From positions 62,001 to 126,000 of the forward strand of contig JAHJCT010000017.1 of assembly GCA_018812715.1 (NCBI GenBank): a DNA stretch of 64,000 nt. Direction: 5' to 3'. The position numbers were made by a program, and so were the translations under genes. The first letter of the stretch is position 1, and the number at the start of each line of letters is the position of its first letter. Origin of the DNA: Microcaldota archaeon. GTDB lineage: Archaea; Micrarchaeota; Micrarchaeia; Anstonellales; Bilamarchaeaceae. The notes beneath the pieces are model-generated. The model did not search any database, was not told the DNA's origin, and worked only from the letters and a program-made list of their open reading frames with translations. Positions 38,299 through 56,916 of the stretch are shown in pieces.

Positions 38299-38436
38299 GC
38301 AGAGGTCGCCCAGTGGTCAAAGGCGCTAGGTTCAGGTGCGCTTTTTTAGAAAAAAAGCGCCCAAAAAACGGGCGCTAAAAGCGCTGTGAAGCCTGGTCGG
38401 TTAGTCCGTTCGGGAGTTCGAATCTCCTCCTCTGCA
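38299..38436 (+). tRNA. tRNA-Leu (anticodon CAG) with one intron
   Basis: Acceptor GCAGAGG/CCTCTGC, D stem GCC/GGC, anticodon stem CTAGG/CCTGG, variable arm CGG-TTAGT-CCG typical of class II tRNA, T arm GGGAG-TTCGAAT-CTCCT. The 54-base intron 38337-38390 at 37/38 contains a GCGCTTTTTT/AAAAAAGCGC hairpin overlapping a GCGCCC/GGGCGC stem. Splicing leaves 84 bases with loop TTCAGGG. Confidence 0.9.
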
Positions 38437-39637: not shown

Positions 39638-41029
39638 TCACCGTTCTTCCATATACATATCAAAAAATCTATCCTGCAAGGGCCTGTTTTCCTCACTATC
39701 TATTTGCCTCCTTCTTCGGAATTCATCTGTTAAGCTTGGAACTTGCCGTGCCCACATTCCATGGTCCATTTCCAACCGCCTAAACCTAACATAGTAATCT
39801 AATTCTACTTCAGAAAAATCATAAATCGCCAGAGGCCGTTCTTCTCCATTACACTCTCTCTCAGGAATAATCCGACATATACTCAACAATTCTTCAGAAC
39901 TAACAAACGTATCCCCATCTCTATTGGCATAGAATGAGGCCTCTGTGACCAATGCTCCAAGTCTTTCTTTTTCCAATTCTCTTTCAAGAGCTTTTTTTTG
40001 CATCTCATTATACCAGTAACCTATAAGTCCAGCAGCTGTTATTGCTACACCAACAAGAAATACTGCGGCGTATTTTGCCACTCTCAGGAGTCTTTTTTTC
40101 CATATTTTTTCAACAGAACTTTGATCATAAATGCCTTTTCCCGTGTTTATAATCACGACTACGTCCTGTGGTTTTAAGTCATACCTGGCTGCCCCGCAAA
40201 ATGCCGCAGCAGCAGACGGCTCTGCTGTCATTCCGATTTCTTTGAGATAGTCATACTCTTTTGCAATATCGTTCTCTCCAACCACCATAAGTTCAGCATG
40301 CCCTTTATCGACAAAGTTCAAAAGCAGCCTCTTGAATTTTGAATATCCGTTGAGCAGCTTATCTGCTATGCTTTTTCCTGGTTTTTCAAGAAAATCTTCT
40401 TGTCTGACTATGACATTTTGATCAATTGTTACTCCTACGATCTTTGGGCTTTTTTCTCCCCATTTTTCTTCAGAAGCAGCTGCCAATTCAACAGCCAATT
40501 CCCCCTCGCCAACAGGGCAGAATATGTATTCTGGTTTAATCCCGGCATCTGCTATTTCCCCTATTATTTGTCTGTAGCCGCCTTCAAGGCCATAATCCTC
40601 TACCCCCACCACATGCTCTCCTTCATGGCCTGAAAGCTCTCTTGCAATCCTATGCATTTCTTCCTGTGTTATCAATCTTTTTCCAACTTCCATTTCATGC
40701 ACTAAGGAACATGCCTTTAATCGTTCTATTATCGTTTTAGACGTACCTTTTGGAACTATGTTAACTACGGTTCTTTTATGCCCTGTTTCTGTTTCCCATT
40801 GCTTTGCCATCATTCCAAGGCTGTATCCAGAGTTTCCAGACGTTACATGAACAAAAATCACTTCCGGCTTGCTTGCATGCAATTCCAGCAGTGCAGCACA
40901 TCTTCTATCCTTAAAAGTTCCGAATGGATTTTTGCTCTCATCCTTGACAAGTACTGTTGCTCCTTTGCATTTTCCACATAGTTCAATAGATTTAAGCAAA
41001 GGCGTCCTGCCAACTACTACTCCTGCCAT
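39638..41029 (-). CDS. PLP-dependent threonine-synthase-like enzyme fused to membrane segment and EF-hand-like loop
   Basis: 463 residues. Residues 1-310 are a fold-type II PLP enzyme: RTPLLKS, NPFGTFKDRR with Lys40 as PLP lysine, HVTSGNSGYSLGMMAKQW, CPVGEGELAVELAA, and VVVIINTGKGIYD. Residues 318-340 form a transmembrane helix, and 369-380 (NRDGDTFVSSEE) fit an EF-hand loop, followed by a charged Arg-rich tail. The catalytic domain is on the N-terminal side of the membrane segment. I know of no such combination. Could be threonine synthase or another beta-family enzyme. Confidence 0.82.
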   Translation of the reverse strand: MAGVVVGRTPLLKSIELCGKCKGATVLVKDESKNPFGTFKDRRCAALLELHASKPEVIFVHVTSGNSGYSLGMMAKQWETETGHKRTVVNIVPKGTSKTIIERLKACSLVHEMEVGKRLITQEEMHRIARELSGHEGEHVVGVEDYGLEGGYRQIIGEIADAGIKPEYIFCPVGEGELAVELAAASEEKWGEKSPKIVGVTIDQNVIVRQEDFLEKPGKSIADKLLNGYSKFKRLLLNFVDKGHAELMVVGENDIAKEYDYLKEIGMTAEPSAAAAFCGAARYDLKPQDVVVIINTGKGIYDQSSVEKIWKKRLLRVAKYAAVFLVGVAITAAGLIGYWYNEMQKKALERELEKERLGALVTEASFYANRDGDTFVSSEELLSICRIIPERECNGEERPLAIYDFSEVELDYYVRFRRLEMDHGMWARQVPSLTDEFRRRRQIDSEENRPLQDRFFDMYMEER

Positions 41030-41203
41030 AGTATCTGTAGATATCTATATGCCTATTTGTGTTTTTAAATGTTTCTTTATGATTTTGCAATACTCCACAA
41101 TGCATCGGAAAAATTCCTTAAAACAAAGGAAAAACTCCAAAAATACATCTTAGATCATCTTGAGAGAAGCCACTCTTTAGATTTGAATATTTATAACCTT
41201 CAA

Positions 41204-41234
41204 CCGCTCCAGAACGGCTCTAGCGATATATATC
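41204..41234 (+). promoter_or_regulatory. Promoter block shared with the Cys-rich operon (HerA-like gene copy)
   Basis: Contains CCGCTC, three bases, AACGGC, one base, CTA, two bases, GATATATA. All these conserved words occur with identical spacing at 47858-47888 (minus strand) ahead of the Cys-rich operon. The GATATATA end is a TATA box, about 70 bases before the HerA-like start. The upstream GC-rich block would be a binding site for a regulator beside BRE/TATA. Confidence 0.7.
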
Positions 41235-41303
41235 AGTTACAGCAGATATAATAGTGTGTAAAAAGGGGCAGTTCAGACATACCCCTTTATTTAAGTGAAA
41301 ATT

Positions 41304-43217
41304 ATGGATGCAAGAGAAATGCACCTCTATTCTCCAAAAGTAGAGGAGGCCGATGTAGAAAATTTCTTCAATCTAATAGTCAAATCCAGATTTCCATTCC
41401 TTGGTTTTCTTGATTTCTCAGATATTTTTTCATTAAATTCCATCAATCTAGTTCTCAGACGAAAAGAAAATACCTTAAGAGTTTATGTCAAAGAAAAACT
41501 CTGCCTACAAAATCTTTCTGCCCTAATTTTTCCCTTCAGATTATGTGAACTCTCCAATTTAGATTCTGTTCAAGGGTCACTCCTGCCATTACCTAAAGTT
41601 TATATCATAAATGGCTTTTCCCACGATATTCTTGATTTTGTGCTTAAGGAAGACATCCATGAGCTTTCCCTGGGCGTAACAAAGTTCTTCGGAAGATTCA
41701 TTGCTCATGGCACAGTAACAGATACTAATGGAAAAAAGGGCATGGTCATTGTTTTCAGTCCACAGAAATTCCTTAGGGTGGATCTTGAAAAAAACCCCTC
41801 AATTTACATGGAACTTTTGGAACCATTGCCAAAGAAAATGCACATGACTTCCAATTATCCTGTTTTTGAAGAAACTGGCATGAGCATTGGGGTTGACAAT
41901 TATGATTCACTGCAACATAGTCTTGTTGTTGGTACTTCCGGGTCTGGTAAAAGCAAAGCACTTTATGTTCTTCTAAAGGCTATCGAGGCCAAACATAAGG
42001 ACAATGCAAGAATCATCATTCTTGATCCTCATGGAGAATTTGCAAGGATGATGCATAATTCTAAAATCATAAACTTTGTAGATAATTATATTGAACCTTT
42101 AGACATTGGCGGGGAAAAATCCCCAATGCTTACTCAATTGATCTCTCAACTTATAACCTCAGCTATTGGCCAAGAAAATAAATACTCAGAGCGCGTATTG
42201 TTTTATGCAGTTCATCTTCTGTCTTCAATTGATAAGCTTGATCTGGGTAATATAAGTCGGCTTCTTACTGATTCTTCAGCCAAGGCCGAATTTGTAAGTA
42301 TGTCAGATAATGCTGAGGTTAAACGCTTTTTTGATGAAGAATTCAACGATATTTACATTCATCATTTCAACAATGCTATTCTCCCAATCCTTAATTTTAT
42401 CGGAGAATATGAACTTTATTTAGGGAAAGAAAAAAAGCGCGAAAACCTGATGAATACTTTGAAAAAAAACCGTGTAACGGTTGTATCATTTGATCCACAC
42501 TTTTTTGGGAGAAGAATGATACGATTTCTTGCCGGCGCGATAATCAACCAAATGTATATCCTTGCTGTTACTGGAAATCTCCAGGATAAGCCAACCGTAC
42601 TTGTTGTTGACGAATTTCCACGTGTTGAAACTAGTGTTGCAAGAGATATTCTTTCTGAAACAAGAAAGTTCAATCTTTATACTTATCTTTCCTGCCAATA
42701 TCTCGGACAACTCAGTAAAGAAGTTCTTGATGCCATCATCTCCAATGTAAGGAATATCGTGGCCTTTAAGCTTACCAGACAGGATGCGGCCATGCTCAGT
42801 TCTATTATGGAAATAAAAGTAGAGGAATATTTCAAAAAAAGCAGAGGCCAGACAGAGCTTGAAGAATCAAAGAAAGAGATGTTTGTCAGGTTGCATCAAA
42901 GGGAATGCATAGTAAGGTTATTTGATGGTGTCAAATACCTTCTTCCAATGAAACTCAGAATTGTTGATGCAGCTAAATGGGGGCTGAAAGAGGGCGTTTA
43001 TCAACCCTCCCAAAATGAAGAACCAGATGATGGATCTGCTGAACTTCCTACAACTGACGACCCTATTTCTTCTGAAGAAGTTGAAAAACCAGAATTGCCA
43101 GACCCAATAATTGATAAACAATACCCATGTGTTGGCTATGCTGTTTCAGTTTCAGATGATGAAGGAAAAATCAAAAGACGAAAAAGAACCCTTAGGAAAA
43201 AAGAAATGGGGCTTTAA
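41304..43217 (+). CDS. HerA/VirB4-like ATPase
   Basis: 637 residues from ATG 41304; an in-frame GTG at 41295 lies in the AAGTGA that probably serves as ribosome binding site. Walker A GTSGSGKS (about 210-217), ILDPHGEFA, Walker B VLVVDEFPRVE, and RNIVAFKLTRQDAAML arginine-finger region identify the FtsK-HerA superfamily. N-terminal ~180 residues are probably a beta-rich accessory domain. The C-terminus is an acidic then very basic tail ending in RRKRTLRKKEMGL. No NurA neighbour; stop overlaps that of the Cys-rich operon. Confidence 0.85.
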   Translation: MDAREMHLYSPKVEEADVENFFNLIVKSRFPFLGFLDFSDIFSLNSINLVLRRKENTLRVYVKEKLCLQNLSALIFPFRLCELSNLDSVQGSLLPLPKVYIINGFSHDILDFVLKEDIHELSLGVTKFFGRFIAHGTVTDTNGKKGMVIVFSPQKFLRVDLEKNPSIYMELLEPLPKKMHMTSNYPVFEETGMSIGVDNYDSLQHSLVVGTSGSGKSKALYVLLKAIEAKHKDNARIIILDPHGEFARMMHNSKIINFVDNYIEPLDIGGEKSPMLTQLISQLITSAIGQENKYSERVLFYAVHLLSSIDKLDLGNISRLLTDSSAKAEFVSMSDNAEVKRFFDEEFNDIYIHHFNNAILPILNFIGEYELYLGKEKKRENLMNTLKKNRVTVVSFDPHFFGRRMIRFLAGAIINQMYILAVTGNLQDKPTVLVVDEFPRVETSVARDILSETRKFNLYTYLSCQYLGQLSKEVLDAIISNVRNIVAFKLTRQDAAMLSSIMEIKVEEYFKKSRGQTELEESKKEMFVRLHQRECIVRLFDGVKYLLPMKLRIVDAAKWGLKEGVYQPSQNEEPDDGSAELPTTDDPISSEEVEKPELPDPIIDKQYPCVGYAVSVSDDEGKIKRRKRTLRKKEMGL

Positions 43218-43969
43218 TCTCCAATGCTATATATGTCTAATTTTAGATTCTTTGTTTTCTCTAATTCCTCTACAATTTCATCTAAGATCATTTCTTTTAT
43301 CTCTTGATACTTCTTTGGTCCAAGCGGTACATTAGCTATTGCATATCTTAGATTTTTTGCATTGAAGCAAAACATGCAATCGACTAAGTTTTCGCAGTTA
43401 TGACAAAAATAACAATCACTGCACTTATTGGAATCACTAACCTCAAAACATCTTGTTAGGCTATTTGAGTTGTAACATTTTAAGCAAAACTGGCATGAAA
43501 AAGCGTAATAACAGCCAATGGCATAATCCGATGCTCTTGGCCAAAAAGAACAAACGCATCCTTTAGAACGGTTGCCGCCACATGTCTTATAGCACGAGTG
43601 AGAACTATAGTAAAAAGTGCAATCCTTCATTTTACTACTCTCACCATAAATTGTATTCGGGGTAGTTGTGCTTATTTTACTAAGAACTTTTTTTGCATTA
43701 CTAAAAGACAATGATTCAAGCTCTTGTTGAGAAATCTGCTTTTTTCCTAATGTGCCATATGCCTCTTCTATGGTAACTATGTTGTGCTTTACATCACTAT
43801 AGAAATCAAATGGGGGAAGGTAAATATGTTCTTCGCTTATTACTGATTTTCCATACTCATAATTGGTAACATTTTTGAATAACCATTTCTCATAATTTTT
43901 GTAGTTTTCTAATGGTTTTCCTAAAATTATCGACGTAACCTTTTGGAATATTTTTTCATATTCATCCAA
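43214..43969 (-). CDS. Cys-rich paralogue 5 of array, type B
   Basis: 251 residues from TTG 43969 (MDEYEKIFQKVTSIILG), chosen because GGTGAT lies four bases upstream and the start then aligns with the type B neighbour. N-terminal domain with NYEKWL and KSVIS; central Cys-rich region (SCYKTCGGNRSKGCVCSF, CQFCLKCYNSNSLTRCFEV, CSDCYFCHNCENLVDCMFCF); C-terminal NAKNLRYAIANV and helix EIKEMILDEIVEELEKT. About 20 cysteines. Overlaps the preceding gene by 8 bases. Family and function unknown. Confidence 0.8.
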   Translation of the reverse strand: MDEYEKIFQKVTSIILGKPLENYKNYEKWLFKNVTNYEYGKSVISEEHIYLPPFDFYSDVKHNIVTIEEAYGTLGKKQISQQELESLSFSNAKKVLSKISTTTPNTIYGESSKMKDCTFYYSSHSCYKTCGGNRSKGCVCSFWPRASDYAIGCYYAFSCQFCLKCYNSNSLTRCFEVSDSNKCSDCYFCHNCENLVDCMFCFNAKNLRYAIANVPLGPKKYQEIKEMILDEIVEELEKTKNLKLDIYSIGD

Positions 43970-44738
43970 TCCAATCACCTTTTTGACTTATAATCTCAAT
44001 TACTGATGGAATAGTTTTCTTCTTCTCTAATGTTTCTGCAATTTCACTAAGTAATTTTGATTTCAAATCAGCAAATTTGTTTTTTTCCAGTTGAATATTT
44101 CCAATAAGATTATGTTTGTTCTTTTGATTAAATGAAAAAAGACAACCACTACAATCTTCCAGACTTGCAGAATAATAACTGTCTGAAACAACATTACAAT
44201 GAAAAGTTTCCATACATCTGGTTTGTTTATACGGATCCAAAACTTTGATACAAAACTGTATGTCCCCTCCAAAACAACAGCCAAATGAATATTCTGGATT
44301 TCTTATTGATGTTGTATATGCTGTATACTTCCCATCATGAACATCCTGACAACCAAGTATATATGATGTATTCATACAACGATGTGAGTTTAAGAAATTT
44401 TGAGAGTTTCCAAGTACAATATCTCCAGCATAGCATATGTTTTCATTCAATTCTTCTAAAATTGAATCAATATCTTTTATCTTGTTAATATCCAACTTAA
44501 AATCTCTTTTTGCATATTCATTTATTTCATTATAACCAATGACCTTAGTATTTTTTGAAAGTCGATTAGATGAGATCGTTATCTCCTTTCCTGAAATTAC
44601 GGAGGTTCTTTTCTCAATTGGATCCGTATATCTTTTTAGATATCCTTCAAATTCTTGAAGTTCTCCAACCTCACGACCAAGAAGAACACCACATGTCTTT
44701 TTCCATGCACGGTTAAGTTGGTTATATGTTTCATCCAT
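43962..44738 (-). CDS. Cys-rich paralogue 4 of array, type A
   Basis: 258 residues, GGGTGA before ATG. Same plan as its neighbours: N-terminal LNRAWKKTCGVLLGREVGELQEFEGYL, SVISGKEITIS, then a segment specific to type A (DINKIKDIDSILEELNENICYAGDIVLGNSQNF), Cys-rich strand repeats (RCMNTSYILGCQDV, TRCMETFHCNVVSDSYYSASLEDCSGCLFSFN), NKHNLIGNIQL and a C-terminal helix. Starts 4 bases after the previous gene's stop. Unknown function. Confidence 0.8.
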   Translation of the reverse strand: MDETYNQLNRAWKKTCGVLLGREVGELQEFEGYLKRYTDPIEKRTSVISGKEITISSNRLSKNTKVIGYNEINEYAKRDFKLDINKIKDIDSILEELNENICYAGDIVLGNSQNFLNSHRCMNTSYILGCQDVHDGKYTAYTTSIRNPEYSFGCCFGGDIQFCIKVLDPYKQTRCMETFHCNVVSDSYYSASLEDCSGCLFSFNQKNKHNLIGNIQLEKNKFADLKSKLLSEIAETLEKKKTIPSVIEIISQKGDWIG

Positions 44739-44742
44739 TTTT

Positions 44743-45504
44743 TCACCCTATATTGAAAATATCATATTTCAGATTCTTTGTTTTCTCGAGTTCCTCTATA
44801 ATCTGAGCTAAAATCATGGATTTTATTTTCTTGTATTGTTCAGGAGAGAAAGGAACGTTTCCAATAGCATGCTGTAAATTTTTTGCATTAAAACAGAACA
44901 TACTATCATGTACATTTTCACAATTATGGCAGAATAAAAGTCCACTGGAATTTGAACATCCATCTACCTCAAAACATCTCGTTACCTGGGATGAATTATA
45001 TGCATGAATGACAAAGCTTGAACGTATGATTCCATGGCATCCAAATCCATTTTGACAAAATAATGCATAATTGGCATAAGCAATATTTTTCACTCCAAGA
45101 TAAACATCTTCGCAATACCAAATATTTCTTCCATCCCCTGCCCCACTTGATTTCTGAATGTTTTCACTAGTTCGATAACGAAAATTTCCACAATGATACC
45201 GGACGGGGTTGAGCAGTTTTAATACTTGTTTTATCGAAGCATCAGCCAAATCATCTGCTTTGTATGGAGATTCTTCTATTTTTTTCATCTCATCTAATGA
45301 TATGACATTTTCTAAGTTGAAACTTTTTCCCATGTAGATAAATGATGGGGGAACCCAAACTTCTTTCCCTGTAATGGCCGAAGTTGTCTTTTTTGGAAGC
45401 GGCACTCTTTTTCCTAACCATTCTCCATATTCCTCCAATCCACTCAGGCCGGTTCCAAGTAAAAGCTTACTGGTATTTTCAAATTCTTTTTCTATTTCAT
45501 TCAT
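44743..45504 (-). CDS. Cys-rich paralogue 3 of array, type B
   Basis: 253 residues from ATG 45504 with GGGTGGG upstream. Type B: MNEIEKEFENTSKLLLG, GLEEYGEWL, TSAITGKEVWVPP, a Cys-containing centre (FCQNGFGCHG, TRCFEVDGCSNSSGLLFCHNCENVHDSMFCFNAKNLQHAIGNVPF), C-terminal KIKSMILAQIIEELEKTKNLKYDIFNIG. Overlaps paralogue 2 by 8 bases. Many positions identical to the genes at 43214 and to the C-terminal half of the gene at 46246. Confidence 0.8.
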   Translation of the reverse strand: MNEIEKEFENTSKLLLGTGLSGLEEYGEWLGKRVPLPKKTTSAITGKEVWVPPSFIYMGKSFNLENVISLDEMKKIEESPYKADDLADASIKQVLKLLNPVRYHCGNFRYRTSENIQKSSGAGDGRNIWYCEDVYLGVKNIAYANYALFCQNGFGCHGIIRSSFVIHAYNSSQVTRCFEVDGCSNSSGLLFCHNCENVHDSMFCFNAKNLQHAIGNVPFSPEQYKKIKSMILAQIIEELEKTKNLKYDIFNIG

Positions 45505-46273
45505 TTTCCCACCCATTCATAACATCAATTATGGAAAATTCGAATCGTTTTTTCTGTTTTAATCCAGAAGCAATTTCCCCAATCAATTTTTTCTTTAATT
45601 CAAGATATTTCTCTTTTTCCAGTTGGACGTTTGCTATGCTGTGCTGCTTAGCCCTGAGGTTAAATGAAAACATGCAGTCACCACAATTCATTAAATTGTA
45701 AGAAAAATAGCAATCAGCACTTTTGACGCATGTGCAGCATTCAAAGCAGCGTCTCAAACTGTTATTGTTGAAACATCGGATGATATGGGATGATTGCCCG
45801 CTGGAGGTAGATCCAAAAACATATTCGCTATCCTGCATGAGGATGGCATATGCTACATATTTACTTCTCATCATGATCGAAGAACTCAGGATATTGTTAC
45901 TATCTACTACAGCATCAGAATCAGCTACATTCTTTGAATTTCCCAATACTTTATTTCCGCTGTAAATTAATCGTTCTTTTATTTCTCCTAGCAGGGAATC
46001 AATATCCTTTATTTTGTTTATGTCAAATGGCGTTGAGAGCTCTGCAAATCTTATGCCTTCTTTTTCATAATCAAAGAATTTGGCATTTTCATTATATTGT
46101 TCAGATACAACCCGCACTTTTTCACCTGAAAAGCAAGAGGTTACTGATTTTCCAACTAATCCTTCTTTTAGATATTTTTCATATTCATTTAATTCTCCAA
46201 TCTCTTCGCCAAAAACAAGCTTACCGGTTGTTTTCCATGCTTTATTCAGCACTTCATAAGTTTCGAATACCAT
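45497..46273 (-). CDS. Cys-rich paralogue 2 of array, type A
   Basis: 258 residues. Type A: YEVLNKAWKTTGKLVFGEEIGELNEYEKYL, then DINKIKDIDSLLGEIKERLIYSGNKVLGNSKNV, repeats around DSDAVVDSNNI and RCFECCTCVKSADCYFSYNLMNCGDCMFSFN, KQHSIANVQL and C-terminal helix LKKKLIGEIASGL. The ATG sits 28 bases inside the end of paralogue 1, with a GGGAG site. Unknown function. Confidence 0.8.
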   Translation of the reverse strand: MVFETYEVLNKAWKTTGKLVFGEEIGELNEYEKYLKEGLVGKSVTSCFSGEKVRVVSEQYNENAKFFDYEKEGIRFAELSTPFDINKIKDIDSLLGEIKERLIYSGNKVLGNSKNVADSDAVVDSNNILSSSIMMRSKYVAYAILMQDSEYVFGSTSSGQSSHIIRCFNNNSLRRCFECCTCVKSADCYFSYNLMNCGDCMFSFNLRAKQHSIANVQLEKEKYLELKKKLIGEIASGLKQKKRFEFSIIDVMNGWENE

Positions 46274-47835
46274 AATCTCCCTCCTCTGTAATTTATATTA
46301 AAAATATCCAATTTGCTCTCTCCAGTTGTTTTCAATTCTTCTACAATCTGCCCTAGTAGCTGATTCTTCAATGTACGGTATCTTTCAGGATCCAAAACCA
46401 GATTTCCTATTGCGTAATGTTTTCCTTTTGCATTGAAACAAAAGATGCAATCTGAAAGGCCCTCTGAATTATGACAGAAAAATGAATCAGAGCATTTGCT
46501 TGACGTATCAACCTCAAAGCATCTGTTGAGATAAAGAGAATTATAACAATTAATACAAAATTGAGATTCTAGTATTCTACCGCAGCCAAAAATATATTTT
46601 GAATTCCCGGCCATAGAACTAAATCCAACATACTCAGAATGTGTACCATCATATGTTTTGTATATGTTTGATGCATTGAATACTACTGGCGTTTCAATCC
46701 TGTTTTTTGAAATACCACTTACAAATTCAGCACTAACATACCCTATCTTTGTTAAATTTTCTTTTATTTTTTCAAGTGAATCCAAATCTTTTTCATCTAA
46801 TGTCATCTTGCCTAATTCCATTCCTTCTTCAAATGAAACAATTCTGTTTTCTGGAAAGCGTGAGAAAATAGAGTATTGCCTGCTTTCTGGAACATAAGTT
46901 TCAATTCCAAATGGTGATTTTATTCTCTTTATTGTTACTGTGTGTTTTGCAAGCCATTTTCCATACTGGTCTATTCCATCTATTTCTTTTCTAAATATTG
47001 TTCTGAAGGTTGATGAAAATGCCCTTTCTATGCTTTCTTTATCCACTATGCTTTTCTTATTTGGAATTTTCAGTTCAACATCTTCGTGCATATCTCCACA
47101 TAGTTCAAAAAGTGACGGAAATCTTTTTGATTTTTTTAGTTCACTTGCGATTTCTGCTAAAAGTTTCTTCTTGAGATTAGCATATCTATCTTTCGGAAGC
47201 TGCAAATTTCCAATACAATATCTTTTGTTTCTTTGAAAAAAAGAAAAAAGCAATTCAGTACATCCAGCACAATTGTATGAGAAATAAATATCACTGCTGT
47301 CTGTGATGAAAAAACTCTCAAGGATTCTCTTTATGTTGTATGCAGCAAAAACCCTTACTATAAATTCTCCTATCCCAAAGCATCCTCCGCCATAGACGTA
47401 TCTGCTTCCTTTTCGTATCATATATGATAAAAAAACGTCAGAAGATTGCTGGATATTTGCTGAATCTGCAACATATTGTGAATCCATCACAAGATCTGAT
47501 GCTTCCACAGACTTGGAATTTCCTAAAATTTTATTTCCCGTATACTCCCATTTTTCTGCAAGAGCTTCTAGTATGGAATCAATATCCTTTACTTCATTAA
47601 TTGTCAAGGCGTCTTCCTTGATCTCATCAGCTGAAATAAATTTTGCATTGCAATACTGGTTACTTTCAAGCAAAACTGGCTTCCCGGAAACTGATGATCC
47701 CTTTTTTCCAAATGACGGCAAATATTCCCCGAGCCATTCTTCATACCCGTTAAGGTCACCAATTTCCTCTCCAAACAGTGTTCTGCTTGTTATTTTCCAG
47801 CCTTTGTTCAATCTCTCATAAAGCTCTGGTTGCAT
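46246..47835 (-). CDS. Cys-rich paralogue 1 of array, fused types A and B
   Basis: 529 residues. Residues about 1-258 are type A (ERLNKGWKITSRTLFGEEIGDLNGYEEWL, EVKDIDSILEALAEKWEYTGNKILGNSKS, FSYNCAGCTELLFSF), 262-515 type B (SIERAFSSTFRTIF, DGIDQYGKWL, CINCYNSLYLNRCFEVDTSSKCSDSFFCHNSEGLSDCIFCFNAKGKHYAIGN). The linker is short. The last about 14 residues, beyond the point where other B proteins stop, run into the next gene's start. TATA box about 28 bases before the ATG suggests a leaderless mRNA. First gene of the operon. Confidence 0.82.
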   Translation of the reverse strand: MQPELYERLNKGWKITSRTLFGEEIGDLNGYEEWLGEYLPSFGKKGSSVSGKPVLLESNQYCNAKFISADEIKEDALTINEVKDIDSILEALAEKWEYTGNKILGNSKSVEASDLVMDSQYVADSANIQQSSDVFLSYMIRKGSRYVYGGGCFGIGEFIVRVFAAYNIKRILESFFITDSSDIYFSYNCAGCTELLFSFFQRNKRYCIGNLQLPKDRYANLKKKLLAEIASELKKSKRFPSLFELCGDMHEDVELKIPNKKSIVDKESIERAFSSTFRTIFRKEIDGIDQYGKWLAKHTVTIKRIKSPFGIETYVPESRQYSIFSRFPENRIVSFEEGMELGKMTLDEKDLDSLEKIKENLTKIGYVSAEFVSGISKNRIETPVVFNASNIYKTYDGTHSEYVGFSSMAGNSKYIFGCGRILESQFCINCYNSLYLNRCFEVDTSSKCSDSFFCHNSEGLSDCIFCFNAKGKHYAIGNLVLDPERYRTLKNQLLGQIVEELKTTGESKLDIFNINYRGGRLWYSKLMKC

Positions 47836-47857: not shown

Positions 47858-47888
47858 CCTATATATCATTAGTGCCGTTGAAGAGCGG
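47858..47888 (-). promoter_or_regulatory. Promoter block of the Cys-rich operon
   Basis: Minus strand: CCGCTC, three bases, AACGGC, one base, CTA, two bases, GATATATA, the same words and spacing as at 41204-41234. The block overlaps a 17-base imperfect palindrome at 47879-47895 (TGAAGAGC and GCTCTTCA arms). The TATA box is about 28 bases from the first ATG. Confidence 0.7.
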
Positions 47889-47896
47889 CTCTTCAT

Positions 47897-48619
47897 TTAC
47901 ATTTTTTTCAAAACCTTCCAAAAAATAGGCAATAATTTTGTTTCAGCTTTTCTTAAATGTTCTGCGAGAGTTGACGGTGCTATCCCGGTTCTTTCTGCAA
48001 GCTGCTCTATAGTTACCATTTTTGGTATTTCATAATAACCATAATCACATGCAAGCCTGAATACTTCAAGCTGTTTTTCACTTAGCAATTCTTTTGCAGC
48101 TTTAAGGTCGAAAAATCCGCTTGTACTAAATACATTAAGGCCATGCGCATCCTCTGGCTTCACATATTTCTTCTTCTTTAATTTAATTTCATAGTAATCT
48201 TTTTGGTCCTTCCATTTACTTAACAATTCATTCATAGCTTTATGTGAATCAGCCAGAAGAATTTCAGAATCAATACCATCAGTGGTTACTGGGGATTCTA
48301 ACAACGTAACATTTGTCTGATGAAGAATTTTGTAGGTCATAGCTTCGTAGCTTGAAACTACTTTTAGCAATGCATTATTTGGTTGTAACATTAATACTTC
48401 CACACTTTTAACAAGCTGGTGATTTTTTATGAAATTTATGTCTTTTTTTGGAGTTGGAGAACTAAGTTGTACTATATTAGTTATATTATTGCCGTGAATT
48501 GACGATATTGTTGATACTAATGAAGCGTCTCTATTTTTTTCAGTAACGTCACAGAACCAACAAAGATGGTTTACGTTTACCTCAAAAATAACTGAATCAG
48601 ACATGAATTCAACTCTCAT
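47897..48619 (-). CDS. Bat-type HTH_10 transcriptional regulator
   Basis: 240 residues. N-terminal ~170 residues form a mixed alpha/beta domain with a WFCDVTEKN cysteine and KSVEVLMLQPNNALLKVVSS. C-terminal LLSEKQLEVFRLACDYGYYEIPKMVTIEQLAERTGIAPSTLAEHLRKAETKLL is the HTH_10 domain of bacterio-opsin-activator-type regulators. Stop is 62 bases before the Cys-rich operon start, same strand, so it may control it. ATG 48619, alternative at 48604. Confidence 0.85.
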   Translation of the reverse strand: MRVEFMSDSVIFEVNVNHLCWFCDVTEKNRDASLVSTISSIHGNNITNIVQLSSPTPKKDINFIKNHQLVKSVEVLMLQPNNALLKVVSSYEAMTYKILHQTNVTLLESPVTTDGIDSEILLADSHKAMNELLSKWKDQKDYYEIKLKKKKYVKPEDAHGLNVFSTSGFFDLKAAKELLSEKQLEVFRLACDYGYYEIPKMVTIEQLAERTGIAPSTLAEHLRKAETKLLPIFWKVLKKM

Positions 48620-48874: not shown

Positions 48875-51800
48875 ATGGGAGGATCATCGCTGAGGTATAC
48901 AGAACCTTTTAATTCTAGTTCTAGAGAATCATCTACGGGTCGCCGAGATGGATTTCTCAGGCGTGCTGCCCGTTATGCAGTTTTAACTACTACTGCACTA
49001 GGTGCTTTTATGACTGGAAATGGTGTTATAACAGAAGCTCGTGCTGAAGAGCAGCGAGTAGAATTTAGTGTTATTAGAGATGCACAAACTAATCTTGCAC
49101 TCGGATTGGATGGAATAAGAGGAACATTAATAGACCAGCGAGATGCAGAAATGCCCGTTGGTGTTGGCTATTCTGATCCAAATGTCGTACAACTACTTCG
49201 AACAATTGAAGGTGTTAATGAACAATTGAGGCCACACAACGGTGGTCAAGATGTTGTTCCTCTTACCGGAACAACTGATCAGGAAAAATTCCAATCATTG
49301 AATCGCTGGTTAGGCAGAGATGAAACTGCTCCAATAGATTTTGATGCCCTTAGTGCTCTTGAAGCCAGATTAACTATGGAAGTTATGGGCCTTGCCTCTG
49401 CTGTTGGCGGTGCACAAGAAATTGTAGCTACTGTTGGTGGCGAAGCACCAGTTGTAGCGCAAGAAGCTCCTCCAGTAGTTGAAGAAGAAGCACCAGTAGT
49501 TATCAATACTGAACAAAGAACTCACTACGAGAGTATTGCAGCAGATCTTGATGTTATTGCACAATATGGCCGTACACAAGATAGAACACAAGCAGGGCAA
49601 TATCGTGATCAAATTAGAGAACAATTAGCAAGTGATAATCCTGATTTAGAAGCGCTTGCACAAGTTGAAACAAATAGTCAGAGTTTGAGAGATCGTAGAC
49701 TTGCTGCCGCTCAAGCAAATCGTGATGAAGCACAACAACAAGAACTCGCGCAGGCTGCTGATCAGGCTGAAGAACAAGAAGGTCGACCTTTTGCACTTAC
49801 TGGTGATTTACTACAAATTCAAAGAGATCTTCAAGCTATTCAAGACAGTCAACCCATTGCAGCTGAAATTCTAACTATGCTTCCACGTGCATATTTATGC
49901 GGTCCAGGCACAAGAGAACAATATGTCAGATTCCTCGGAGAAGCACGCAATGCATTAACTGCTGAAGAGCCAAATCTTGTTCAAGCAAGAGAAAGAGTTG
50001 AAAGTGCACGCGCAATTGATCAAAGAGAACAAACACTTTATGCATTATTCTTAAGACAGGTTATCATTCCTGGTGCAACAGTTTACAGTGAAGCACTGGC
50101 AGGAAGTACTGTTCCTACTGAAGCTCAAATGCAAGAATTTGAAACAAGAGATGAAATTGAAGTTCCAGGAAGAAGAACCAGTACACGTGATCGCGAAAGA
50201 ATGGAAAGAAACAGATATTACAGAACTTCAAATGGCATACACAATGGACGAGAACAATTGGTAAATCCTACAAACGTTCTACTCACTACAGCAACCCAAT
50301 ATCTTGAACATAATGAAGGAAATCTTTCATTCAATTATGTCTGGGATCTTTATCAGTCTCTTCAGACAAATGGACAAGCAGTAACATTCCTTATTGATGT
50401 TTGGGATTATGCACAGGCCCATGGAATCAATGATGCTCCTGTGGAAGTAAGAAGAAACTTCATGCAGGCATATGCTGTTGCTGCATTAACATTTGCTGAT
50501 CCAGAGTTTAATCCATATCCAAGTTATCCTGAAGGACTTAGAAGATTACTTTTTGATCAGTATCGAGAAGCAACTGGGAATAGAGATGCAACAGATGCAG
50601 ATGTAATGGCTGCACTTATGCGTTCTCATCATACAAGAGTTCAGGATGCTTTAATTGGTGTTTATCAATGGAGTGCAACACTTGCTCCTGAACTTTCTGG
50701 TGATGTTGCAACTTCAATCTCCCGTTTAAGAGCAGGAAGAATGGTTTATATGGAAGAATATGAACCATACATCCGCGATAGATACAGTGGTGTAACTGAT
50801 GCTCAAAGGCTTGAAGATACCCGTTATTTCTTAACTAATGCAGTACAATTAGCAGAAGAATCTGGCATGTCTTCTGAAGATGATTTAATTCAATATGCCA
50901 GAGCCCAGCTTGCAATTAATACTGATGATTATGCTCCAGAACAACTGCAAAATCTGGCTGACAGATACTATGCAATGTCATTGGATCTTTTGGCAATAAG
51001 AGAAGCAGAACTCTGGCTTGCAAATCCTGATCTTTGTCGTACAGCACCAGAGCTTGATAGAGCACGTGGCCTAATAACAGAAGCAAGAATGGTGTTTGAA
51101 TGGAATTTCTCACACCCTGAAGTTGAATCAACATTCTATTCTTTCTTATCTAGGAATATAGCTGATGAAGTAACAACCTTGCTCGCTCCATTTGCACTTT
51201 CTTCAATTGAATCTCATGCAACCTATCTTTCTCTTACCGCAATTGACAATGCACAATCCAATGTTATGGATTATTTATTCCCTGAAGGTCAAGAACGTAC
51301 ACTTGATGAAGATCCTGTAGCTTATAGGGAAGCAGTAATAGCTGATAGAGAAGCGGCCTTTATTGCAGCAACTAGCAGCGAACAAAACCATTTGAGAATG
51401 CTCGTAAGTTTAAGAACTGATCGTGATTTTGGGCCTCTTCCTCTTGTACCAACTACATGGGAAAATGATTTAGAAGTTCTAAGTCCACAACTAGGAAGAG
51501 CAGAGGTAGTTGGTTCTGGCGTTGATATCAGTCTCATAAGTGTTGGTGGCGAGAGATCAAGACTCACATTAGCTCCTGCAGATCCTGGACGTGCTATTAT
51601 AGGCGGCGGGCAATATCGTAGGGAATTGGCTGCACTATATCCACAAGGTCATGCATTTGCAGAAATTCACAGGCAAACATTGCTTCATATTGATGAAGGA
51701 GCACCAGCACTTCTAAGGCAAATGAATGCAGATGGTTTCAGAACTACCCTGGATGGCATAGCAGAAAGATATGATCAGCCGCAGGTTCTTACACAATCAA

Positions 51801-52726
51801 ATGCTCTTCTCAACGAAATACTGAGAACAAGATTGGATGAACTTGAAACCAGACTCGGATCTCGCAGAGAAGATGGAGTCGTTATTTCAACCATTCCAAC
51901 ACGCAGTGATGATCCACATGCATATTATGTTGTAAGGGCACAGGAAGCACAAAGAAATGGCAGACGACACCTGGAAAGATTCAATACTAATCTAGATTCA
52001 GATCTTTTTGAAGGACAAGTTGATCCAAGGATGGCAATCATGGAAGTTGAAGCTGCAATTGCAAGCCTTTCTCCTGAATTTGTGGATGGTATACCAGTTA
52101 GAGATGTAGAAGAACAAATAACTGCAACACTTGAGGAACTTTCATTCTATGTTCCCAGTACTGACATAAGAATTGACAGGTCTGGTTCAAGACCAGTACG
52201 GGTGCGCTTTACAGCAGAACAAGTAATGGTCAGGCAAGATGAGGGTGCCGAAGTTTCTCTTGAAGAATATGAGCGTTCAACAGGTTCAGATATAACTTTA
52301 ACATATAATTGGTTTATTTATCAGAGCCTTGGCCAAAGCGAAGATGTTAACGCTACACGCTATCTGCTCAATCCCAGCTATCTTGCAGAAGGCGAACAAA
52401 GATATATCGGCCAGGTAATGAGAAACGTAACACTTACAGATGGAACTACTGGAGATTTTGTTGTGCGGGTAAGACCAAGCGGCATGGAACCTACAGAAGG
52501 TCCTGAATGGCTACCTCTGACAGAATTGAATGGAAGGGTGCGGCCTGAAAATGTATTGTATCAGCTCTATGACGGCACACTTGAACCTATGAGAGGCAGC
52601 TTACTCAATGAACATCTTGATGAAGTCGCCAGAAGACGTACCAGCAATGTCAACACAGTCAATGAATATGGTCCTACAATACCAGTGGTTATTGTGTCTC
52701 CAACAGGAATGACACTTCAAGAATAA
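48875..52726 (+). CDS. Very large exported helical protein
   Basis: 1283 residues. N-terminus with two Arg pairs (GRRDGFLRRAARYAVL), a hydrophobic stretch TTTALGAFMTGNGVITEARA, and cleavage expected near ARA-EE, as in a signal peptide. The body is helical, rich in Glu, Gln, Arg and Ala, with some 40-residue patterns, and few cysteines. No membrane segment or catalytic motif. ATG follows GAGGATGGGTAA. First of a group of three exported proteins. Function unknown, possibly surface or periplasm-like scaffold. Confidence 0.75.
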   Translation: MGGSSLRYTEPFNSSSRESSTGRRDGFLRRAARYAVLTTTALGAFMTGNGVITEARAEEQRVEFSVIRDAQTNLALGLDGIRGTLIDQRDAEMPVGVGYSDPNVVQLLRTIEGVNEQLRPHNGGQDVVPLTGTTDQEKFQSLNRWLGRDETAPIDFDALSALEARLTMEVMGLASAVGGAQEIVATVGGEAPVVAQEAPPVVEEEAPVVINTEQRTHYESIAADLDVIAQYGRTQDRTQAGQYRDQIREQLASDNPDLEALAQVETNSQSLRDRRLAAAQANRDEAQQQELAQAADQAEEQEGRPFALTGDLLQIQRDLQAIQDSQPIAAEILTMLPRAYLCGPGTREQYVRFLGEARNALTAEEPNLVQARERVESARAIDQREQTLYALFLRQVIIPGATVYSEALAGSTVPTEAQMQEFETRDEIEVPGRRTSTRDRERMERNRYYRTSNGIHNGREQLVNPTNVLLTTATQYLEHNEGNLSFNYVWDLYQSLQTNGQAVTFLIDVWDYAQAHGINDAPVEVRRNFMQAYAVAALTFADPEFNPYPSYPEGLRRLLFDQYREATGNRDATDADVMAALMRSHHTRVQDALIGVYQWSATLAPELSGDVATSISRLRAGRMVYMEEYEPYIRDRYSGVTDAQRLEDTRYFLTNAVQLAEESGMSSEDDLIQYARAQLAINTDDYAPEQLQNLADRYYAMSLDLLAIREAELWLANPDLCRTAPELDRARGLITEARMVFEWNFSHPEVESTFYSFLSRNIADEVTTLLAPFALSSIESHATYLSLTAIDNAQSNVMDYLFPEGQERTLDEDPVAYREAVIADREAAFIAATSSEQNHLRMLVSLRTDRDFGPLPLVPTTWENDLEVLSPQLGRAEVVGSGVDISLISVGGERSRLTLAPADPGRAIIGGGQYRRELAALYPQGHAFAEIHRQTLLHIDEGAPALLRQMNADGFRTTLDGIAERYDQPQVLTQSNALLNEILRTRLDELETRLGSRREDGVVISTIPTRSDDPHAYYVVRAQEAQRNGRRHLERFNTNLDSDLFEGQVDPRMAIMEVEAAIASLSPEFVDGIPVRDVEEQITATLEELSFYVPSTDIRIDRSGSRPVRVRFTAEQVMVRQDEGAEVSLEEYERSTGSDITLTYNWFIYQSLGQSEDVNATRYLLNPSYLAEGEQRYIGQVMRNVTLTDGTTGDFVVRVRPSGMEPTEGPEWLPLTELNGRVRPENVLYQLYDGTLEPMRGSLLNEHLDEVARRRTSNVNTVNEYGPTIPVVIVSPTGMTLQE

Positions 52727-52747
52727 TATTCATGGGAGGTGAAATGG

Positions 52748-52915
52748 GTGGAACTTAAAAAAATAGACAGTTTGAGGCAGAGGGATGCACCAAACTCTAA
52801 ACACAGAGTTGCAAAATGGGCATCAGCAGCGGCTTTAGGCCTTTATTCGTTTGCCGGATCTCAGGGACAATTTTTAAATTTAGACATCCCAATACCATTA
52901 GTATTCACTATATAG
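52748..52915 (+). CDS. Possible short membrane peptide or broken signal peptide
   Basis: Read directly: GTG at 52748 opens 55 codons, ending TAG 52913-52915, preceded by GGAGGTGAAATG. The product starts with a basic stretch then AKWASAAALGLYSFAGSQGQ, like a signal peptide. The following gene (52926) begins with a residue pattern (SLAQAEEAPREE) that looks like the cleavage end of a signal peptide, but in another frame with an intervening stop, so this may be its separated N-terminus. Confidence 0.4.
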   Translation: MELKKIDSLRQRDAPNSKHRVAKWASAAALGLYSFAGSQGQFLNLDIPIPLVFTI

Positions 52916-52925
52916 GTGACTAAAC

Positions 52926-54875
52926 ATGGGAGGATCCCTGGCACAGGCTGAAGAAGCCCCGAGAGAAGAAGGAACAGATACATTATCATTTATACGAGCA
53001 CTTGATCCAAGCAGAGAAATTACTGATTCTCATCCAACACGTGCTGAAGCACCAGCAATATTGGTTGACAATGCATTGAGAATTCAGGAGCTTATGGAAT
53101 TAGTTCGTGGTGAACGACCTGCTGAAGGAAACGCAATGCGCGGAACTTATGATGAAGCAGTGCGTGTTCTTGGAGAAGGACAAGGAAGAGATGCTGCTTT
53201 GCAAGCTCTTGATCGCATGCTTATTGGCGTATTCCAAACTCTTGAACAAAGAATTCGCGATGGCGATATTACAGATAGAGCTGGGTTTGGTGCAAGTGTT
53301 GATAGATTTGAACAATTGCTCAATAGCATAAATGCAGGAATAGACACTGATCCTGATCGTTACCTGGCCTATGATCCGCACATAAATACAATAACGAGTT
53401 TGCTTACGGTTCTTCAAGGTGGGAGTATAGGCGCTGGTGTAAGAGAACAGGATGAGGCAACAGGGCAAAGAGCATTGCCATTCATAGATATGCCGCTTCA
53501 TGATCTTGGAGCAATTCATCTTATATCAAGTACAGATGATGAAACAATTGTTACAGTCAATGCTGAGGTAACTCCAGTTTTAACGTCGATGTTTGGTGGT
53601 CAAGATATAGCGCAGAATTCATTGAATCAATTGGCAAATGCATATGCTACTTTGACAAACCATCCAAATGATCTGAGCCAGCATCAACAAGCAGCAAATC
53701 TATTGTATGAAGCATTGAACCAAATTCCTCAAGACAAAGAAATTTGGAATTCATCAGTTCATCCGCACTTTACTGCTGCCATGGAGGCATTGCAGCGTGG
53801 TGATCTGAGAACTGCACTTTCTGAATTAACCCAGGAAACTTCATTCAATGCAGTTTATGGCCAATTGAACAATTTCTATACGATTTCGGTGAACCAAACT
53901 GCCGTAGCTGTTATGCGTGCTGGTGTTACAGTTAGATACGAATTTCCTGACAACATGCAACGATTCGAGGAATTTATGGCAGGTGCACGTGAAGGTACAC
54001 TTGAACCTGCATTCATTTGGCTTGCATTAGGTCTTCATTATGAATATCTCTTGATGAGTGGCCAATTGCAGCAATTCCAGCTTGAACTTGGTGGTGAAGA
54101 ACCTACACTTACACAAGTTGGGAGTACGCCTCTCAGCGGAACCGGCAATGTTTTCCGTGTTAGGCCCGAGATTGCCATTGGAGCGGGTGCATGGGGCCAT
54201 CCTATAGAAATTGTTCTCCATGCAGATATTGGCTATAGAGAATGGGCAATGGGTGCTGACATTGAAATGCAAGATGGTTCAACTCAAAGGCTTGAAATCG
54301 GTGATGATGGTGCCTTTATTGGTCTTTGGGGAGTTGAAGTTAGATTCCCAGGCAGGACTGGCGAACGTTCCAGGATTAGATTGGAACGTGTTGGTCTTGG
54401 TGCAGTAGGACATCCAGAAAATGCACTTGCTTACTTGACCCTATCAGGTACATGGACAGAAGGAAATGTTATGAGAATCCAGTCATTTGTAACTCCACAA
54501 TACTCTCACTTCCTCAGACAACACAGAGTGGGCGGTGACATAAGACCTGCAGATTTTACATTCCAATTGGATCCACAATGGTCTCTTTACTTCGGTCCTG
54601 GACTTAGATACGAATATAACATCGGGAATGATTCACATACCTTCGAAGCGTATATGGGTGCAGGCTTTAGGTTTGATAGAGGAGTTGAGCTTGATCTTCG
54701 TGGAGGGTATATAGAAGGAGTAGGCGGACCAGAAGGCGAACGTGTTCCAGGAACAGGTTTTGGTGGACTTAACCTTACACTCACACCAGCCGATTGGTTC
54801 AGATCTGCAGACGACACTCCTATTACACGTGATACTGTCCCAAGAAGGGCAAGAGAGGAGGAACGAGATGAATAA
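52926..54875 (+). CDS. Large exported protein with beta-barrel-like C-terminus
   Basis: 649 residues from ATG 52926 with GGTGAC upstream. N-terminal ~380 residues are helical. From about residue 400 there are many amphipathic strands with alternating hydrophobic residues and aromatic turns (FRVRPEIAIGAGAWG, EIVLHADIGYREWAMGADIEM, RSRIRLERVGLGAVG, WSLYFGPGLRYEYNIGN, FEAYMGAGFRFDRGVELDLRGGYIEG), as in outer-membrane-type barrels. No lipobox, no real signal peptide. Such a barrel is unexpected in an archaeon. Overlaps the next gene by 8 bases. Confidence 0.7.
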   Translation: MGGSLAQAEEAPREEGTDTLSFIRALDPSREITDSHPTRAEAPAILVDNALRIQELMELVRGERPAEGNAMRGTYDEAVRVLGEGQGRDAALQALDRMLIGVFQTLEQRIRDGDITDRAGFGASVDRFEQLLNSINAGIDTDPDRYLAYDPHINTITSLLTVLQGGSIGAGVREQDEATGQRALPFIDMPLHDLGAIHLISSTDDETIVTVNAEVTPVLTSMFGGQDIAQNSLNQLANAYATLTNHPNDLSQHQQAANLLYEALNQIPQDKEIWNSSVHPHFTAAMEALQRGDLRTALSELTQETSFNAVYGQLNNFYTISVNQTAVAVMRAGVTVRYEFPDNMQRFEEFMAGAREGTLEPAFIWLALGLHYEYLLMSGQLQQFQLELGGEEPTLTQVGSTPLSGTGNVFRVRPEIAIGAGAWGHPIEIVLHADIGYREWAMGADIEMQDGSTQRLEIGDDGAFIGLWGVEVRFPGRTGERSRIRLERVGLGAVGHPENALAYLTLSGTWTEGNVMRIQSFVTPQYSHFLRQHRVGGDIRPADFTFQLDPQWSLYFGPGLRYEYNIGNDSHTFEAYMGAGFRFDRGVELDLRGGYIEGVGGPEGERVPGTGFGGLNLTLTPADWFRSADDTPITRDTVPRRAREEERDE

Positions 54876-56916
54876 ATACCTTTTTTCTCTTTTAATTTTA
54901 TTTTCTTCGGTTTATGCAACCAGTATAAACAATGGTGAATTCGAAGGAACAATGTCAACATGGTATTTTGAAACAGACATGCAATTTACTACTGATTTTA
55001 CATTATCTTTAGTTAGCGGTAGTGTAGCCACTGGTGATCCAGCTGATCTTGAAACTGGCGACATTGTATGTATGGGTTCAGTAGTAAGAGTTACCCCGAC
55101 AATAAATACAGAATGGGCAACGCCTGATTTTGATGTTGTTGCCCTTTATCCAGCTTGGGGCCCAGGCTATCCAGCTATGATTACCTATAGTACAGTCAAT
55201 ACTAATAGAGATATAGAATGGCTTTCCTCATCCATATTCAATAATCACAAAACATTTGCTGATGCAAATGATTACTCACAGGATATATCTAGATATGAAG
55301 AACTTGACATTTTTTATGATCAAAGTGTAACCTACAACAATGCAACCGGCCAATTCCACTCAAACAAAAAAGGCGGGGCAAATCTTTTCTGTAAAGGAAC
55401 TCTTCAAACGCGCGATGGCACTACAGAAGAAGGGACTTCATCACTTCCAACTACAAGTTCTGTTGATATTACTTTAGATGGTGGCGGTTCACATGCAATT
55501 TCAACTAGAATTACTGGAACCGAATGCTTCGGGGCTGTTGTAAAACACCCTCTTGATTTGGATGATCCACCATGGTTCTGGCTTGATTATTTCTCTCACA
55601 GCCCTCCATCAGCTCTTTCAAATCCTTTAGGTACAACTACAAAAACACTTACTGTCCAAGAAGGCGGTGGAACCTGCGATTTCCATGAAACCGATGTGGT
55701 TGCAAGCGGATCTACTGATGATGATCTGATAATGGTCCGAGTAACTATGGAGAATGATGGTGCTCAAATCCTCATTACAGATGTATCAAGTTCAAACGTA
55801 GATTATACTGTGGAACCATTCCCAGTAGCATTATGCGATGTTCTTGGTTTCCCTGAATCAATTTGTCCTGCTTCAAATGGATTTGAAGAACCAATCAATA
55901 CTGGCAGTGAAAAAGATCTTTATGTTCTTATACAAAGAGGTGTAGGGGCAAGTGGTGGAACTGTTCTGACATTTGATGCAGAAACCGTTTCAGACTCATG
56001 TGGTGGTGCAGGAACATGCAGTGAGCTTGTCAGCCTTACTGGTCCAATCACATGTGAAATAGAACCACCAGAACTTGAATATGGAACATTAGAAGTAGCA
56101 GAATTCCTTGTATCATGCGAAGATCTTGCAGGAGATCCAATATCATGTGTTGGTGATGATTGGTATTGGGAAACCATTTCCGGAGATTTCATAGAAAGAG
56201 ACAATACACATGCCCTTGCTTATCCAACATCTCCTCCAGGTTCTTCTGGAACATTAAATTACAGATCTGGCATTGCACTGTGTTTCTCTGATATAGATGT
56301 AGTATCTCCAAATTACGAATGCGAATTTATACCACCAAGTGCAAATATGAATACTGGTGATTCACAATACTTTGATCTTAATTGTTTTGTAGGTGGCAGT
56401 GCATCTGAACCTGATGATGCAGATTATGATGCTATCAATGGACTTGATGGAAGTACTAGCGGCTCAAGCACTGCTGGAACAACATTCAATGCAGGTGCTG
56501 AAAGCAGCGGTGATCTCAGAGGATTTGCCCAATGGGATGATCCAACTGATGATCCAGTTTTGGGTGCAGTTGCATTAGCGCCAATAACCATCGGTGCATC
56601 GAATGAAACTGATGGAGACGATGATGGTTCAACCGAATTCTGCACTATTGGTGACGGCCCTCTTACTGTCTATCCTGGTTATAGTAGCTGGCTATCAATT
56701 AAGTGCGGTCCTGATGGAAATGAAACATGCAGTAGTGTTGATTGGTCTATAGATCCTCCTGATGTTGGTTCAGTAAGCGGCAACAATCTTGGTGCAGATG
56801 TAACAATAACTGGCTCACCAGGTGAATCAGGGATAATATGGGCTGTTGTTGGCGAGGATGAAAGCTGCTTTAAACCATTTTTCATCAGTACTCCAGATTG
56901 TTGGGAGTTCTCATAA
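54868..56916 (+). CDS. Exported Ig-like repeat protein
   Basis: 682 residues from ATG 54868 (GAGGAGG site, signal peptide MNKYLFSLLILFSSVYA). Beta-rich, acidic, with paired cysteines; from about residue 380 three similar segments (CEIEPPELEYGTLEVAEFLVSCED, CEFIPPSANMNTGDSQYFDLNCFV, CTIGDGPLTVYPGYSSWLSIKCGP) suggest Ig-like (Big-type) repeats. No membrane anchor at the C-terminus. Third gene of the exported-protein group and likely surface exposed. Confidence 0.7.
   Translation: MNKYLFSLLILFSSVYATSINNGEFEGTMSTWYFETDMQFTTDFTLSLVSGSVATGDPADLETGDIVCMGSVVRVTPTINTEWATPDFDVVALYPAWGPGYPAMITYSTVNTNRDIEWLSSSIFNNHKTFADANDYSQDISRYEELDIFYDQSVTYNNATGQFHSNKKGGANLFCKGTLQTRDGTTEEGTSSLPTTSSVDITLDGGGSHAISTRITGTECFGAVVKHPLDLDDPPWFWLDYFSHSPPSALSNPLGTTTKTLTVQEGGGTCDFHETDVVASGSTDDDLIMVRVTMENDGAQILITDVSSSNVDYTVEPFPVALCDVLGFPESICPASNGFEEPINTGSEKDLYVLIQRGVGASGGTVLTFDAETVSDSCGGAGTCSELVSLTGPITCEIEPPELEYGTLEVAEFLVSCEDLAGDPISCVGDDWYWETISGDFIERDNTHALAYPTSPPGSSGTLNYRSGIALCFSDIDVVSPNYECEFIPPSANMNTGDSQYFDLNCFVGGSASEPDDADYDAINGLDGSTSGSSTAGTTFNAGAESSGDLRGFAQWDDPTDDPVLGAVALAPITIGASNETDGDDDGSTEFCTIGDGPLTVYPGYSSWLSIKCGPDGNETCSSVDWSIDPPDVGSVSGNNLGADVTITGSPGESGIIWAVVGEDESCFKPFFISTPDCWEFS

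Follow-up and report, generated by a model that had tools for sequence, protein, structure and literature searches.

Our comparative genomic analysis of a 64,000-nucleotide stretch from a Microcaldota archaeon (phylum Micrarchaeota; assembly GCA_018812715.1, contig JAHJCT010000017.1, positions 62,001 to 126,000, hereafter the window) shows how pairs of predicted beta-solenoid proteins, A and B, are accompanied by a VirD4/HerA-type ATPase in Micrarchaeota and, separately, in Gracilibacteria-class members of the candidate phyla radiation (CPR). As first described from the sequence in the original prediction, a minus-strand array at 43214-47835 consists of five genes that encode six domains of about 250 residues in the order A=B, A, B, A, B, where A=B denotes a fused pair. 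That description covered the array correctly and left out the ATPase, the regulator and two operator-like palindromes that we here consider part of the locus (Table 1). Because the array and the ATPase share a promoter element, are tightly linked and co-occur in two domains of life, we conclude that the ATPase is very probably the functional partner of the A-B pairs. The best explanation we can offer, and a reasonably probable one, is that a single hexameric translocase in the cytosol works with the pairs as its interchangeable partners.

The proposed division into two types is borne out by a tree of 304 domains, which splits into A and B without exception and places the window domains as foreseen. 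Clade A takes in all 108 N-terminal halves of fused open reading frames (ORFs) plus 45 domains from unfused genes, and clade B all 108 C-terminal halves plus 43 such domains; among the window domains, pairwise identities are 38-43% for A-A, 33-37% for B-B and 21-28% for A-B. In 62 loci from Micrarchaeota, B comes after A, 103 times within one fused ORF and 41 times as the neighbouring ORF; the few partial exceptions are at contig ends or involve broken ORFs. Distances between A domains track those between their cognate B domains (mirror-tree r=0.49; shuffling partners inside a locus brings this down to a mean of 0.27 and a maximum of 0.35). The tree, the gene order and the mirror-tree correlation together support the suggestion that A-B is one unit duplicated pair-wise, and we regard A and B as almost certainly an obligate, ordered pair, side by side or fused. 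The genes overlap at three of the four junctions (by 28, 20 and 17 nt), the fourth being a 4-nt gap. One detail of the earlier description needs adjusting: the fusion correctly read in the first pair turns out to be the commoner state across the family.

The family was taken to be unnamed, and so it is: Pfam, NCBIfam and PADLOC gave no match for the array proteins and the fused protein retrieved nothing from the PDB, so that annotation pipelines built on these resources miss the system. No domain matched a known family, and no earlier description was found in the literature, which was covered mostly without subscription papers. The last gene matches phrog_15341 (E 7e-5), a PHROG family without known function. 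In its own genome (1.27 Mb, 36 contigs, 90% complete) the six array domains are the sole credible A/B copies, and a profile built from these six recovers them at E ~1e-105 or better. Elsewhere the family is found in 30 of 59 related genomes, with up to 37 domains per genome, and in 53 of 295 genomes of a phylum-wide Micrarchaeota sample, mostly in the same order and in some cases elsewhere in the class; a scan of the collection gave 72 loci, nearly all from Micrarchaeota, with weak matches in Gracilibacteria and one Abawacabacteria genome. At the long ORFs of L018, L055 and L138-L145, seemingly additional N-terminal domains were dismissed as open-frame upstream read-through rather than fusions, and a BLAST cluster of "opposite-strand" neighbours at 57 loci was set aside as antisense reading frames of the A/B genes.

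Clustering of neighbouring genes returned one striking partner, the ATPase, which lies at array 3' ends, usually convergent and 0-40 nt away; the only recurring plausible neighbours of A-B are this ATPase, regulators and a threonine-synthase-like pyridoxal phosphate (PLP) enzyme of the PALP family. Among the 25 visible arrays of two or more pairs each, 11 carry the ATPase at the 3' end, 10 of them in convergent orientation. The window ATPase is single-copy in its genome at E<=1e-10, as it is in most of the related Micrarchaeota genomes, and combines a HerA/FtsK-like P-loop core with a VirD4/TrwB-type domain (PF10412, TrwB_AAD_bind, 9e-10). It shares 51-74% identity with its copies in 12 loci, whereas A=B proteins mostly show only 30-55% identity to their counterpart in the window. 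The genomes compared are incomplete metagenome-assembled genomes; in the 59 related Micrarchaeota, ATPase and A-B occur together in 28, each alone in 2 and neither in 27 (Fisher test, 3e-12, calculated, like the CPR test below, irrespective of phylogeny).

A common palindrome marks the promoters of array and ATPase in loci with a regulator of the helix-turn-helix (HTH) family HTH_10, as comparison of the loci shows. In the window it approximates ACCGCTCTAGAGCGGT and lies between the HTH_10 gene and the array, with 23 nt from the start of the motif to the start of the TATA-like box, and this spacing is identical at the ATPase promoter, the only other strong site in the 64 kb, against a Markov background expectation of 0.6 matches per 64 kb. 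Both promoters carry the palindrome in all seven loci where both are visible (the window, L037, L038, L040, L069, L074 and L078). From its position, the HTH_10 protein is the putative binder. The ATPase-side site also faces the divergent PALP gene, a possible member of the regulon; at L078, three threonine-synthase-like PLP genes stand beside the ATPase. Where single pairs are dispersed, the divergent regulator is often a different one, either of Lrp type with two HTH domains or TrmB. Regulators of Lrp/AsnC type and about 330 residues lie divergent from single A-B pairs at L042, L043, L065, L085, L087, L092 and other loci, and the three that we checked against Pfam (L087, L065 and L043) carry two HTH domains in each chain, apparently through tandem duplication. 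A sigma-70 promoter scan was set aside as inapplicable to an archaeon.

The same association recurs in bacteria. The original prediction had pointed to a beta-helix-like family in CPR and DPANN genomes, and this proved apt: searching with a CPR profile recovers every one of the six window domains (E 1.9e-13 to 7.5e-6) and nothing in six A-B-free Micrarchaeota, and hhalign aligns the archaeal and CPR solenoids at 99.5%. The CPR relatives carry two solenoids per chain, form tandem arrays and reach 40 copies per genome; the genome of locus L108 (G304), with 40 matches to the family, reads TGA as an amino acid. The closest CPR match to the archaeal ATPase, homologous to it over 357 columns and itself a match to PF02534 (T4SS-DNA_transf, 2e-9), often lies inside or beside a solenoid array, and 22 of 27 CPR ATPase loci have a solenoid gene in their 1.5-kb flanks, against about 1.6 expected by chance. 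Counting solenoid matches at E<=1e-50 and full-length ATPase matches in 60 Gracilibacteria-class genomes, we find both in 28, the solenoid only in 2, the ATPase only in none and neither in 30 (Fisher test, again irrespective of phylogeny, 8e-15; 7e-14 without the seed genomes). Scoring the alternatively coded G317 as ATPase-positive shifts one cell and gives 2e-13. The family is confined to 11 of 192 genomes in a whole-phylum CPR sample. With 30 sequences in the comparison of the CPR halves, each of the four domain types (A, B, CPR-N and CPR-C) forms a clade of its own in a tree that splits A+B from N+C with a support of 0.93; since the tree sets the two couples apart, the doubling of the solenoid appears to have occurred separately in Micrarchaeota and CPR.

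Several observations weigh against a dedicated partnership of motor and pairs. Two genomes keep the ATPase without A-B (G040 at L117 and G046 at L118), with other genes around it and no A/B match nearby, the G046 copy being near exosome and proteasome-like genes. Because these genomes retain the ATPase alone, it can evidently serve another role, and they suggest an older or second one. Conversely, A-B is present and the ATPase was not detected in G018 and G054, and many dispersed single pairs sit far from the ATPase. The operator matrix, moreover, was built partly from loci that were later scanned with it; the ATPase-side sites were kept out of the matrix.

Our structural models give the pairs a definite shape. 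Modelled by AlphaFold with 99 relatives, the fused chain (predicted local distance difference test, pLDDT, 87; predicted template modelling score, pTM, 0.90) is predicted to fold into two beta-solenoids of 12 residues per turn, each with helix caps. DSSP bridges in the model recur every 12 residues (160/172/184/196/208 and 427/439/451/463/475), helices cap both solenoid ends, and the sequences themselves are periodic, with lag-12 autocorrelations of 0.66 for A (shuffle maximum 0.37) and 0.56 for B (shuffle maximum 0.30), and about -0.2 at lag 5. The pTM also suggests that A and B are packed against each other in one set geometry, in line with the heterodimer first envisaged for them. The CPR model (pLDDT 82, pTM 0.84) likewise has strands spaced 12-13 residues apart and a helix after each solenoid. 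Foldseek returned nothing below E=1 for the archaeal model against PDB and BFVD or for the CPR model against PDB. The solenoid proteins have no clear membrane segment. The outer positions of the first, N-terminal coils are strongly variable, and the last coils and the C-terminal helix are more conserved.

The cysteine richness noted at the outset (median 9 per A and 12 per B domain) could be taken to mean that A and B are metal or redox proteins, whose cysteines would serve as metal sites or as a store of thiols, the link to the ATPase being incidental, and a CxxCxxCxxC coil in the N-terminal half of 23 of 30 CPR proteins is in keeping with this. However, the frequent cysteine columns all fall on every third position, on the inward face of the solenoid, where relatives exchange them for Ser, Leu, Val or Ala; the full four-cysteine coil is found in just 2 of 153 A domains and 1 of 151 B domains; and the ATPase link recurs in two domains of life. 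The metal site raised for checking at the outset thus lacks support, and the substitution patterns led us to reject it as a candidate in A and B. Since the inward cysteines are exchanged and the four-cysteine coil is rare, a metal role is unlikely for the archaeal domains but may exist in the N-half of the CPR proteins, and we consider the metal or redox account as a whole quite improbable. Still less probable, in our judgement, is a structural role in which the solenoids stack into bactofilin-like filaments or a scaffold: the beta-solenoid architecture and the high copy number would suit it, yet helix caps at both ends would block end-to-end stacking and a dedicated ATPase would not be expected.

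Two further alternatives take the ATPase as their starting point. If it were a type IV coupling protein, the A-B pairs could be effectors secreted into a host or prey cell, a reading that draws on the matches to TrwB_AAD_bind and T4SS-DNA_transf, on the many diverse pairs per motor, on the host-associated lifestyle of the carrier lineages and on how common orphan VirD4-like proteins are in CPR (PMC12102498). However, TrbL/VirB6 was undetected in any genome tested, VirB4 searches of three A-B-positive Micrarchaeota (G022, G024 and G053; genomes 84-90% complete) gave only HerA-scale matches, and the ATPase has no clear N-terminal membrane anchor by a crude test (highest 19-residue hydropathy: median 1.60, maximum 1.68). 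The pairs, for their part, carry no fused toxin or enzyme domains and no variable effector domains, and their core and caps are conserved, unlike those of effectors. The missing VirB6, the lack of detected VirB4 in these A-B-positive genomes and the absence of effector domains weaken the case for a type IV export channel, which we hold to be unlikely. The HerA-like core could instead point to defence, with A-B, as a variable sensor or a binder of nucleic acids, recruiting a DNA translocase against invading elements. The variable outer coil faces, the scattered distribution (6 of 17 genomes in the genus of the window, motor and pairs having been gained or lost jointly) and the lack of A/B homologues in the viral contigs, phages and plasmids searched, by which A-B is no evident mobile cargo, would all be compatible with such a role. 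Yet no NurA, nuclease or known defence effector is a conserved neighbour, PADLOC gives no A-B match and mostly short P-loop matches for the ATPase, and dedicated Lrp- or TrmB-type regulators at single pairs are atypical of defence islands. Defence therefore appears unlikely to us as well.

We are thus led back to a motor with interchangeable partners, within which the more specific assignment of A-B as an adaptor, as opposed to exported cargo or a defence sensor, is tentative and somewhat doubtful. Under this proposal, the ATPase would form a cytosolic hexamer onto which A-B might dock through its conserved C-terminal helix and final coils, while the N-terminal coils, with their variable outer face, would bind a target specific to each paralogue; the motor would then pull or remodel the bound nucleic acid or protein. 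One motor could in this way serve many pairs, each induced separately through regulators of HTH_10, Lrp or TrmB type. If the two-solenoid unit was indeed built twice, then two solenoids per motor contact would be mechanically required. Taken together, it is plausible, at somewhat less than even confidence, that ultra-small archaea and CPR possess a hitherto undescribed machine, in which a VirD4/HerA-family motor exapted from DNA translocation serves many individually regulated, paired solenoid adaptors and whose paired unit arose twice.

Table 1. Features of the A-B locus in the window
Feature	Position	Strand	Details	Basis
A domain, N-half of fused A=B protein	47083..47835	-		ORF call, identities, tree, AlphaFold model
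B domain, C-half of fused A=B protein	46246..47082	-		ORF call, identities, tree, AlphaFold model
Whole fused A=B ORF	46246-47835	-	529 aa	
Pair 2 A protein	45497..46273	-	258 aa	ORF call, identities, tree, gene order
Pair 2 B protein	44743..45516	-	257 aa	ORF call, identities, tree, gene order
Pair 3 A protein	43962..44738	-	258 aa	ORF call, identities, tree, gene order
Pair 3 B protein	43214..43978	-	254 aa, GTG start	ORF call, identities, tree, gene order
VirD4/HerA-superfamily ATPase	41295..43217	+	Convergent with array, 3' ends overlap by 4 nt	
HTH_10 (PF04967) regulator	47897..48619	-	Codirectional, directly upstream of array	Pfam
Operator-like palindrome AGCCGCTCTTCAACGGCA	47873..47890	-	Array promoter; TATA-like GATATATAG at 47859-47867	
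Operator-like palindrome AACCGCTCCAGAACGGCT	41202..41219	+	ATPase promoter; TATA-like GATATATAT at 41225-41233	
Threonine-synthase-like PLP enzyme (PF00291, PALP)	39638..41029	-	Divergent from ATPase; in 5 loci	

Elsewhere in the window, Rfam places a tRNA on the plus strand at 38299-38436; it is spread over 138 nt and thus probably contains an intron of about 65 nt, and ARAGORN reported no tRNA in the window. Also on the plus strand, 48875-56916 holds a run of three long ORFs (1283, 649 and 724 aa), none of which has a Pfam match; the first, of 1283 aa, has a signal-like N-terminus and is rich in Glu, Gln and Ala.

Most of the genes that distinguish CPR and DPANN organisms are without function. 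Reaching about 18 pairs or more in genomes of about 1 Mb, the A-B system is a large investment for reduced cells, and this high copy number indicates that its function is probably important to their lifestyle. In CPR, 5,713 orphan VirD4-like proteins have been counted, of which only 148 lie near virB4, and exaptation has been suggested for those ATPases that lie away from secretion loci (PMC12102498). Our findings provide a subset of these orphan ATPases with a specific, probable partner, in two domains of life, and in the archaea with a shared operator as well.

Among known folds, the A and B solenoids resemble in geometry the beetle antifreeze protein TmAFP, a 12-residue beta-helix with an out-in-out-out pattern (PMC8038014), with which they share the coil length and inward residues at every third position, often Cys or Ser. 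In contrast to TmAFP, to which they have no sequence relation, A and B are taken to be cytosolic, helix-capped and paired, and their coil consensus lacks the T-C-T ice-binding face or a repeated T-x-T. Pentapeptide-repeat proteins are likewise small beta-solenoids but differ in period (5/20, as against 12 here). The ATPase shares its HerA/FtsK-like P-loop core with HerA translocases, both of HerA-NurA and of HerA defence systems, from which it differs in its N-terminal region and in lacking a NurA or effector neighbour, HerA itself apparently being encoded by separate genes in the same genome. With VirD4/TrwB coupling proteins, including the orphan type IV coupling proteins of CPR (PMC12102498), it has the superfamily and core motifs in common, whereas in the Micrarchaeota tested a clear anchor and a VirB6 or VirB4 partner are missing and the partner is a solenoid array. 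The bacterial counterparts are the tandem Cys-rich two-solenoid proteins of Gracilibacteria and Abawacabacteria, for which we found no Pfam or NCBIfam name: they have the same homologous solenoid in tandem arrays, two solenoids per unit, a linked VirD4/HerA-type ATPase and TrmB-type regulators nearby, and differ in their conserved four-cysteine coil, in extra N- and C-terminal cysteine-containing modules with weak treble-clef matches and in halves that derive from a separate duplication.

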